IMG/VR virus record: IMGVR_UViG_3300003789_000021
Coordinates: 1-22,181 of that record
DNA length: 22,181 bases
Strand: one strand, 5' to 3'
DNA from: a virus
How positions within the stretch are numbered: position 1 is the stretch's first letter; each line of letters opens with the position of its first letter. A program made the translations under genes and the position numbers. This document shows, one piece after another, positions 10,577 to 18,923 of the stretch. The notes under the pieces are model-generated. The model was not told the origin of the DNA. It did no database searches and worked only from the letters and a program-made list of their open reading frames with translations.

Positions 10577-10827
10577 CCGACTGGAAAACACATGCCAACA
10601 ATTTACTAGCAGAATTTGATCTTTGCTGTCGAGCAAAGCCCAAACACGATGCGGTAAATATACAATTAGAAAAAGATGCGGTAGCCAAATTTGCTTACCA
10701 TTTATCTACCCAACTTGGTTGGGGTGATGAAAATGAAATAGCAGAAGCCTGCCATCAACTAGCACCTCGACTACAACGATTAAAAGAAAAATTAGTAATG
10801 GAAATATTGACCAATGGGCCTGTTTAA
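10573..10827 (+). CDS. Small protein of unknown function
   Basis: This 84-residue protein is predicted to be mostly helical, with two Cys at 18-19 (DLCCRAK) and His residues but no motif I recognise. It is coupled to the glycosyltransferase (ATGA) and overlaps the methyltransferase start by 14 bp. The overlaps on both sides argue for a real gene. Confidence 0.65.
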   Translation: MTDWKTHANNLLAEFDLCCRAKPKHDAVNIQLEKDAVAKFAYHLSTQLGWGDENEIAEACHQLAPRLQRLKEKLVMEILTNGPV

Positions 10828-11572
10828 AAATCCCGACGAAAGTCACGAGCACAGTCGAAAAACTTTAGATCTAATCTACAAGTATGATGATTATTTAGAT
10901 AGTTTAACTGTAGTAGCAGACATGGGTTGCGGTGCCGGATTTGACGCTAAATGGTGGGCTACACTACAAACTAGAGATGATCCTCCGGAATTCCACAATT
11001 ACATTGTTTATGCAGTTGATCAAAATATTCAACAGATTGATCCAAGCATACTAGCACTACCTAATGTACACCCAATTGAGGGAAATTTTGAGGAACGAGT
11101 TATCCCTAGACAAGTTGATCTATTATGGGCACATGATTCATTTCAATATGCTCGAAATCCTTTAAAATGTCTGGCCACATGGAAATCAACTATGACGGTC
11201 AACGGTATGTTAGTGCTAACTATACCACAGACTACTTATTGGGACCATAGACGCAGTCAAATGATCATTAGTAATCATAGTCACCAATACTACAGTTATA
11301 ACCTTTTGAATCTTATCTATATGTTGGCCATCAGCGGATTTGACTGTAGAGATGCGTATTTTTATCGTGAACCAGGGACTCCTTGGCTACAAGCAGCGGT
11401 ATACGCTACAGAACATGAGCCCTTGCCCGAACACGCTAGTTGGCACGACATAATTGACCGCAATTTAGTCAATGATAGTATTGTTAGTAGCGTAACTAAG
11501 TATGGATATGCACGTTTAGAAGATACAGTAGTTGCTTGGCTGGACAAAGACTTTTATCAAATTACAGACTAA
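10814..11572 (+). CDS. Class I SAM-dependent methyltransferase
   Basis: The 252-residue product has motif I VADMGCGAGFDAKWWA (residues about 33-48), an acidic motif II residue in YAVDQNIQQ and a motif IV-like segment QVDLLWAHDSFQYARNP. After LKCLATWKSTMTVNGMLVLTIP comes a large insertion with HRRSQMIISNHSHQYYSY, a layout seen in small-molecule and sugar O- or N-methyltransferases of the UbiE/type-11 group. The acceptor is unknown. It is the last gene of the operon, overlapping the preceding small gene by 14 bp. A late-promoter motif for the next gene lies in its final codons. Confidence 0.8.
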   Translation: MGLFKNPDESHEHSRKTLDLIYKYDDYLDSLTVVADMGCGAGFDAKWWATLQTRDDPPEFHNYIVYAVDQNIQQIDPSILALPNVHPIEGNFEERVIPRQVDLLWAHDSFQYARNPLKCLATWKSTMTVNGMLVLTIPQTTYWDHRRSQMIISNHSHQYYSYNLLNLIYMLAISGFDCRDAYFYREPGTPWLQAAVYATEHEPLPEHASWHDIIDRNLVNDSIVSSVTKYGYARLEDTVVAWLDKDFYQITD

Positions 11573-11575
11573 ATA
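11568..11575 (+). promoter_or_regulatory. Late promoter motif before the packaged-protein gene
   Basis: ACTAAATA lies seven bases before the ATG at 11583, inside the methyltransferase stop region. The same box precedes the gene at 18549. With T4 late spacing the transcript would start about two bases before the ATG. Confidence 0.5.
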
Positions 11576-11582
11576 CTGTATT

Positions 11583-12764
11583 ATGAAAATGCGCGAATTA
11601 ATTAATATCCTTGACGAAGCTGTCAAAGCACCAGCAAAACCATCTGTCCAACCCCTAATTGATCGTACAGGCGTTCTTGAGTTATTAAAAAAGGCCGGCT
11701 ACGATAACGTAAAAGTAAATGGTAACAAACTACAGCCACTAGTTCAAATACCCGATGGTCAATTAAAAAACAAGTATCGTCAAAGTATCTTGGCAAATAT
11801 TCTACAGATCCTAAAAAAAGTTGCACCAAAAGCTAACCCACGTATCGCAAATATTCCAAATATTAGCTCTGCTGGCGTCATTATTTTTGACAACAGTCCT
11901 GTTAATATTTCTGTCAAAGACGTGGGTCAGCAAGCAGATAAATCTGCTGGTAAAGAAAATGAATTTGTCTTGGACGCAATGATGGCCAGTATGATTGAAA
12001 AATACGGCTCAATAAATGTAACCTTTGTTGATACTCGCGGCAAAAGCATTACTATTCATGATGCTGTAGAAGTCGAGTCAACTGGAGGAACTCCTGGAAG
12101 ACATGCTACCGGCGGTATTAAAAAAGCTGACGTTGTACTACGCAGTAAAACAAAAAATTTACCAATCAGCATCAAAGAATTAAGTGCCGCCAGTTGGGAA
12201 AGTGCTGAAGGTTCCTTTGGAGCTAAAGCTAGAAAGATTATTGACGATCTATTATCTCAAGGTGCTATAAAATTAGACAAGTTGACAGATGATCTTGGAC
12301 GTGAATACTACAGACTCAACAAAGAGATTGTAGTAGAACCAACTGAAGAAGAATCTATGCGAGCTATCTTTGGTACAGACATTAATCCTGAAGGTGGTAT
12401 TGTTATTCAAGATTTTAAACCACACCACTTTAAGCAAGAAGGTAAGAATATTACTGTTGAATGCCACACAGTTATCAAAACCAAAGCTGATATTCCAGAA
12501 AGCCATTTAATGGTTTGGCGCATTGGTAATAGTGCAAGCCGTCCTGGTAAAGCTATTGGATATCGTGGCTTACGTCCACAGGCACTGACACTAAAACGTG
12601 CCCTTGGTACACGTGGTACCAAGGATGTTGTACTAGTTGATAAAAATGGTAATCTTCTTCGCGGAGGCCTAAATCAAACTGGTGATCAACCTGCAAAAGC
12701 CAACGCAACTGCACCAAGAGCACGCAGATCTTCGACAAAAGAGCCGGTACGTCAACGTCGTTGA
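11583..12764 (+). CDS. Predicted internal head protein with nuclease-like core
   Basis: The start at 11583 follows a late box. This 393-residue protein begins MKMRELINILDEAVKAP, like the capsid-targeting peptides of T4 internal proteins, and L10-D-E12|A13 fits the T4 gp21 prohead protease rule (L/I-x-E, cut before A/G/S). The middle has a helix E127-FVLDAMMASMIEKYG, then GGIKKAD183-VVL and PISIK198-EL followed by SWESAEG. This order (Glu in a helix, Asp on a strand, x-x-Lys on the next) resembles PD-(D/E)xK nucleases, but Ser196 stands where D/E is usual. The tail is basic (ARRSSTKEPVRQRR), which fits DNA contact. I infer a packaged, possibly injected, nuclease-like protein; neither part is certain. 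Confidence 0.6.
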   Translation: MKMRELINILDEAVKAPAKPSVQPLIDRTGVLELLKKAGYDNVKVNGNKLQPLVQIPDGQLKNKYRQSILANILQILKKVAPKANPRIANIPNISSAGVIIFDNSPVNISVKDVGQQADKSAGKENEFVLDAMMASMIEKYGSINVTFVDTRGKSITIHDAVEVESTGGTPGRHATGGIKKADVVLRSKTKNLPISIKELSAASWESAEGSFGAKARKIIDDLLSQGAIKLDKLTDDLGREYYRLNKEIVVEPTEEESMRAIFGTDINPEGGIVIQDFKPHHFKQEGKNITVECHTVIKTKADIPESHLMVWRIGNSASRPGKAIGYRGLRPQALTLKRALGTRGTKDVVLVDKNGNLLRGGLNQTGDQPAKANATAPRARRSSTKEPVRQRR

Positions 12765-18548: not shown

Positions 18549-18923
18549 ATGAAAACACTTAGAGAATACATTGACTTAGTAGATGGCAAGATCCACGAGG
18601 GTATCTTTGACCGCTTTAAGAAAGACAGAACATTGCCGCACGACCCTCGGTTAGAACCAGCGTTAGCACAAGCAAAAAGTGAAAACAAATGGATTGATCC
18701 GTTTACTTGGCATCAGGCCTGGTTCTACGCAAGAGTGTTGACTGATATGAATGCCGAACAAGCAATGGCTGAATACAATCGTAATCATCAAGGAAACATG
18801 AGTGCTACCAATCCTGATCCTAAAACCTGGAAAATAGCATTTGATACCCAGCGGCAAGAAGGACTCGATGAAGAAGCAACACCCGAATCAATCGCTCGCA
18901 TCGAGCAACTCAGTTCAAAATAA
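18549..18923 (+). CDS. Predicted internal head (packaged) protein
   Basis: The start at 18549 is chosen because the reading frame before it lies upstream of a late box. The 124-residue product begins MKTLREYIDLVDGKIHEG, closely similar in layout to T4 internal-protein targeting peptides (MKT-x-x-E-F/Y-I). I15-H-E17|G18 is a matching gp21-type cleavage site. The rest is charged and helical with no known motif, ending ESIARIEQLSSK. The N-terminus is shared in style with the protein at 11583-12764, and the promoter box is identical. I infer packaging with the DNA and delivery into the host; function after injection is unknown. Confidence 0.65.
   Translation: MKTLREYIDLVDGKIHEGIFDRFKKDRTLPHDPRLEPALAQAKSENKWIDPFTWHQAWFYARVLTDMNAEQAMAEYNRNHQGNMSATNPDPKTWKIAFDTQRQEGLDEEATPESIARIEQLSSK

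Follow-up and report, generated by a model that had tools for sequence, protein, structure and literature searches.

We propose that a gene of a giant T4-like phage encodes a PD-(D/E)xK-type nuclease that has been converted into head cargo. The 393-amino-acid (393-aa) product is probably a nuclease and, with slightly less confidence, probably packaged in the head; that both hold together is fairly likely, and the full pathway set out below has a somewhat better than even chance of being right.

The gene and its relatives

The window, i.e., the whole stretch of DNA that was analyzed, comprises all 22,181 bases of IMG/VR virus record IMGVR_UViG_3300003789_000021. On sequence grounds, it derives from the genome of a T4-like phage: it encodes a gp32-type SSB, UvsX, and UvsY (PHROG profile matches) and carries 21 tRNAs by ARAGORN and 22 by Rfam, and the best matches listed for its UvsX are from jumbo phages such as Atu_ph07, Phosso, XbC2, CBB, and GAP32 (66 to 70%). 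The window has no head genes, so the protease evidence given below is limited to a related contig. The features discussed are as follows.

10814..11572, plus strand: class I methyltransferase gene, context only (weak Pfam matches)
11570..11577, plus strand: T4-late-type box TAAATACT (from sequence; TAAATA is frequent upstream in near relatives)
11583..12764, plus strand: 393-aa open reading frame (ORF) with ATG start and relatives, candidate head-packaged nuclease
11583..11618, plus strand: capsid-targeting-like tag MKMRELINILDE, predicted cut after Glu12 (motif conserved in near relatives)
11658..11933, plus strand: N-domain, residues 26 to 117, nucleotidyltransferase-like fold (VIA-align)
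11934..12668, plus strand: nuclease-like core, residues 118 to 362 (AlphaFold2 model; restriction-fold neighbors)
11961..11963, plus strand: Glu127, predicted catalytic (invariant in 43/43 rows)
12123..12131, plus strand: Lys181-x-Asp183, predicted catalytic (both invariant in 43/43 rows)
12168..12176, plus strand: Ser196-Ile-Lys198, predicted catalytic (Ser196 and Lys198 invariant in 43/43 rows)

A TTG at 11532, taken from the mechanical ORF, is an alternative start. No credible family was found for the 393-aa protein in Pfam, NCBIfam, or PADLOC, and a PDB sequence search matched no solved structure credibly. The family phrog_12709 matches residues 117 to 334 (E = 1.8e-25) and is of the same sequence family as the core, although it is annotated as function unknown and its match begins past the tag. 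Homology to the T4 head-completion nuclease gp4 was rejected (BLASTP E = 0.46 over 42 residues).

Viral contigs yielded 121 relatives, 80 of which were taken further; 76 of these were read, the other four contigs having a match identical to another's. Alignment and structure models used 42 relatives picked for diversity plus the window (43 rows), box counts used 31 near relatives from this selection plus the window (32), and tag counts used 75 of the 76 relatives (63 near and 12 distant), one with a cut 5' end being dropped. Start codons of the relatives were set by script and by hand (seven manual settings). Among phage records, 69 matched by tblastn (Vibrio, 50; Stenotrophomonas, 16; Synechococcus, 2; Xanthomonas, 1), none reaching 60% identity and only one covering 80% or more of the protein; no match was listed for Atu_ph07. 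A plasmid search found no homologue, and scans of species-genome contigs gave 76 and 141 candidate stretches with no relative among them, using patterns so narrow that distant cellular relatives may be missed.

Tag and late-type box

The preliminary description, made from this sequence alone, had proposed a head-targeting N terminus with a gp21-type cut site, and the relatives lend this support. The N terminus, MKMRELINILDE followed by Ala, is organized like the capsid-targeting peptides of T4 (in the T4 record, MKTYQEFIAEA for ipII and ipIII and MKTFKEF...TITEA for ipI), with the cut motif LDE/A (the slash marking the cut). According to PMC9026906, gp21 cleaves on the C-terminal side of L/I-X-E, and IPIII needs its first 10 residues for targeting. 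AlphaFold2 modeled the tag as a helix (residues 2 to 14) with a moderate pLDDT (58 to 68 by blocks of 10). An MK or MR start occurs in 62 of the 63 near loci, the lone exception (L060) having a script-set start too far in. Within residues 5 to 20, [LI]xE was found in 59 of the 63 near loci, and [LIV]xEA was found in 46, versus 11.2% and 0.25%, respectively, of 16-residue control windows drawn from the bodies of 32 selected near proteins. L/I-x-E is present in 41 of 44 distinct near N termini and in 6 of the 12 distant relatives. The first 20 residues differ among near relatives with the L/I-x-E cut motif retained, as exemplified by MRYQEFLTEA, MRELINILTEA, MRYTEFTRTLVEA, and MKIRDIVESTVIQEA. 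The 49-row tree has a 35-member clade (support, 96/98) with 33 tagged members; several branches outside this clade are long and unsure, and the tag label needs 3 changes on the tree versus a shuffled mean of 11.6. Because 33 of the 35 members are tagged and the label changes only three times, the tag is, on this phylogeny, old within the clade.

Upstream of the gene, TAAATA lies at 11570 to 11575, 7 nt before the ATG; the chance expectation of TAAATA-N7-ATG in the window is 0.66, and a single box therefore proves nothing alone. Among selected near relatives with the window included, however, TAAATA lies within 50 nt upstream in 19/32 and within 120 nt upstream in 29/32; for the remaining ORFs of these loci, the corresponding counts are 22/164 and 25/158. 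This is in agreement with the late box originally proposed. In near relatives, the box often stands either 13 nt ahead of the ATG or near -56, in the latter case separated from the gene by a short palindrome, and T4 genes 22 and 24 have TATAAATA upstream (T4 record). We infer from these upstream sequences that the gene is expressed late from a TAAATA promoter. If TAAATA is a late promoter with T4-type spacing, the message would be nearly leaderless in the window (11570 to 11585) and in near relatives whose box likewise lies 13 nt from the ATG. Six loci (L027, L030, L044, L051, L053, and L070) share a conserved GATAAATAC box near -56, after which the palindrome GTGCTATAATTAGCAC or GTGATATAATTATCAC follows.

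None of six isolated-phage homologues is tagged. Untagged homologues occur in isolated Vibrio, Stenotrophomonas, Xanthomonas, and Synechococcus phages, several among replication and recombination genes, with helicase, primase, UvsX, or DUF6267 genes as neighbors; DUF6267 adjoins the homologue in S-8S55 and EniLVp02 and is close by in 8 loci, all within the 12 distant ones. Since untagged homologues lie among replication genes, the enzyme was probably an intracellular nuclease at first and was recruited as head cargo later. The same neighborhoods would also suit an enzyme that was never packaged, i.e., a recombination or replication nuclease (e.g., junction or flap cutting) whose N-terminal helix is a protein-binding or folding element. 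Such a role is favored by matches to UvsX and UvsY in 37 and 45 of 88 relative loci, respectively (some contigs counted twice), and by fold matches of the core that include Hjc and RecU. REase-fold resolvase candidates are also described in jumbo phages, in a study whose REase-fold proteins include AUZ94847.1 and APU01428.1 (PMC7824862). However, a tag that varies in sequence but keeps L/I-x-E, and a conserved late-type box, are unexpected for an early replication enzyme, and we regard a never-packaged nuclease as rather unlikely.

Nuclease-like core

Elements resembling those of PD-(D/E)xK nucleases (a Glu helix, an Asp, and SIK) had been pointed out in the middle of the protein, and both the alignment and the structure model support them. 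Only 21 columns of the 43-row alignment are invariant, including Glu127, Lys181, Asp183, Ser196, and Lys198; Asp183 and Lys198 had been singled out beforehand. Glu127, Asp183, Ser196, and Lys198 are likewise kept in all 11 rows of a set including five isolated-phage homologues (about 26% identity). Glu127, Asp183, and Ser196-x-Lys198 follow the PD-(D/E)xK active-site order (Glu, Asp, x-x-Lys), and AlphaFold2 placed Glu127 within a helix (122 to 141) and Ser196-Ile-Lys198 on a strand (192 to 198).

The whole protein was modeled with a mean pLDDT of 85.2. With the whole model, the VIA-align rows fall mostly within residues 6 to 117; the core (residues 118 to 362) was therefore also folded alone (pLDDT, 89.5; pTM, 0.82). 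Foldseek against the PDB gave no match at an E value of ≤0.001 for either model. VIA-align, run on Foldseek's candidates, listed 50 rows for the core, 39 of which we class, by title and general knowledge, as restriction-fold enzymes; all Z scores are below 8, a range that according to the tool possibly reflects a common arrangement. HinP1I came first (Z, 5.3; 167 residues aligned; rmsd, 4.6), followed by I-Ssp6803I (4.8), Hjc (4.4), and then RecU, SwaI, EcoRV, HincII, McrBC, and others. HinP1I, other PD-(D/E)xK restriction enzymes, and resolvases resemble the core in topology and in E...KxD...SxK spacing, although HinP1I has only 8% identity to it. Given that a single family fills several rows and that every Z is low, it is the agreement among neighbors and no single score that supports a restriction fold in the model. 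The proposed fold comparison yielded a confident core model with mostly restriction-fold neighbors, all at low Z. In a viral library, the best named non-phage fold matches of the whole model were chlorovirus proteins, one named Endonuclease (E = 1.2e-8 to 1.5e-4). The accessions are A7J8A5, M1HX89, M1I108, and M1IJF5; we take the unnamed rows M1HX89 and M1I108 to be chlorovirus proteins from their accession series. Residues 25 to 117 were modeled as a domain separate from the core that resembles nucleotidyltransferase cores (GLD-2: Z, 9.4; rmsd, 2.3; 77 residues aligned).

A packaged internal protein devoid of nuclease activity, such as a DNA-binding filler or an inhibitor, would be in keeping with the basic character of the 393-aa protein and with the diversity of T4 internal proteins, which are described as having only the CTS in common (PMC3012670). 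All motif residues, however, fall within the 21 invariant columns, which makes such a protein very improbable.

The methyltransferase gene ends 10 bp upstream of the nuclease ORF and has BLAST matches in 28 of 88 relative loci (some contigs counted twice), an arrangement that could suggest the restriction half of a restriction-modification pair. The methyltransferase nevertheless lacks a DNA-methylase motif of the [DNS]PP[YFW] or PC[QN] type that was searched, and its Pfam matches (Methyltransf_31/11) are weak, below the cutoff, and to general methyltransferase families. We therefore reject the pair, which appears extremely improbable.

Proposed head cargo and its possible use

The preliminary reading of the gene as a packaged nuclease stands in part: the tag, late box, and core are supported by the relatives and the model, whereas packaging, cleavage at Glu12, DNA cutting, and the target are what we infer. 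In the proposed pathway, the protein would be synthesized late from the TAAATA promoter, and its N-terminal helix would direct it to the prohead core, as for T4 internal proteins. A phage gp21-type protease would cut after Glu12 at maturation, and the basic mature protein (computed pI, 9.8) would be loaded along with the DNA and ejected into the cell infected next. In that cell, it would make metal-dependent cuts, most likely in host or resident foreign DNA, with phage DNA being spared via site specificity or modification.

Contig G001, which has a tagged homologue, carries genes for a gp21-like protease (49% to S-8S55 gp21 over 150 aa and 35% to T4 gp21) and a gp55-like late sigma factor, and LLAE/S in its capsid protein fits as a cut site. 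Applied to four sequences, a stricter tag pattern matched 8 ATGs close to ORF starts (2 of them being the window gene counted at two ATGs) versus 1 internal control match. Three ORFs of contig G004 fit the strict pattern: the nuclease homologue, one whose product is a superoxide dismutase by Pfam (Sod_Fe_C, E = 1.3e-22), and one assigned to DUF6267 by likeness to an S-8S55 protein. A CTP_transf-like 783-aa protein of G004 has the N terminus MYSFELFEAP. Dismutases and DUF6267 proteins of the related contigs are as follows.

G004, 49878-50429, minus strand: Fe/Mn superoxide dismutase (L110); tag-like MRDYINLVEAK, TAAATA upstream
G001, 221434-221988, minus strand: Fe/Mn superoxide dismutase (L128); tag-like MRDIIQLLEDK, TAAATA upstream
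G004, 125478-126746: DUF6267 protein (L114); KWDG motif, tag-like start
G002, 82636-84576: DUF6267 protein (L101); KWDG motif, extra N-terminal part with GDMDLAVD motif
G001, 345837-347000: DUF6267 protein; KWDG motif

We take the KWDG motif to resemble ligase motif I; a literature search on DUF6267 found no paper. One of the 8 strict-pattern matches, in G001 at 32513, is without known function, as is one in G002 at 183756. In the window, a 124-aa ORF at 18549 to 18923 starts with MKTLREYIDLVDGKIHEG, has TAAATA shortly upstream, and has no confident family; its sequence makes a second head-cargo protein possible. As a genome-wide cargo finder, a looser tag pattern was rejected, ORF starts being no richer in it than internal methionines.

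A dismutase homologue of Pseudomonas phage PA5oct has the N terminus MNDSIKKYISIAEAA and a record note of ESI-MS/MS, a note that leaves the virion unspecified and stands on 93 genes, some of them metabolic. By analogy only, this flagged dismutase supports the head-cargo reading. Scanning PA5oct with a strict tag pattern picked out 5 ORFs, of which 2 are MS flagged, and this is no proof of a tag code there; a search for the nuclease homologue (best tblastn E = 0.039) indicated that PA5oct lacks the gene.

As to the target, chlorovirus particles are described as containing a superoxide dismutase as well as restriction endonucleases, whose presumed role is the early breakdown of host DNA (PMC7019647). 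Because of this precedent, an attack on host or foreign DNA would be the likeliest use of a nuclease cargo. Since untagged homologues lie among replication genes, the packaged enzyme could instead act on the phage's own DNA at entry, in end processing, repair, or recombination; its kinship to enzymes encoded among replication genes and the tag on the G004 DUF6267 protein, with its ligase-like KWDG motif, are consistent with this. The fold list, however, mixes resolvases with site-specific restriction enzymes, and we consider action on the phage's own DNA a serious alternative, albeit one of low probability.

Compared with T4 IPI, IPII, IPIII, and Alt, the 393-aa protein is alike in its M-K/R tag with L/I-x-E, late-type box, and basic character, T4 internal proteins being described as basic (PMC9026906). 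The payload differs, as it is nuclease-like here, whereas IPI is a restriction-enzyme inhibitor and Alt is an ADP-ribosyltransferase; T4 is also reported to package and deliver CTS fusions of EcoRI and staphylococcal nuclease (PMC9026906). The packaged endonucleases of chloroviruses offer a likeness in that a viral nuclease is thought to enter with the genome, although these are eukaryotic viruses, and our chlorovirus fold matches may be proteins other than the packaged enzymes. To our knowledge, chlorovirus packaged endonucleases have no T4-type tag. No natural phage head-packaged nuclease appeared among the papers listed in literature searches, whose coverage includes few subscription journals.

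We tentatively suggest, as a possibility less likely than not to hold in full, that a lineage of large T4-like phages uses a common targeting peptide to stock its heads with a kit for takeover and protection, consisting of the nuclease, superoxide dismutase, the KWDG (DUF6267) protein, and a nucleotidyltransferase-like protein. If so, the kit would be an independently evolved phage counterpart of the nucleases and dismutase of chlorovirus particles, and host DNA would be attacked ahead of any phage gene expression; the roles described for T4 internal proteins are host RNA polymerase modification or a restriction block. A natural nuclease cargo would show T4-type heads to be capable of bringing in a DNA-cutting enzyme at time zero, which has so far been reported for engineered fusions. 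Tagged and untagged homologues constitute a natural experiment, and the aligned tags offer a way to test the predictability of head cargo in uncultured phages.
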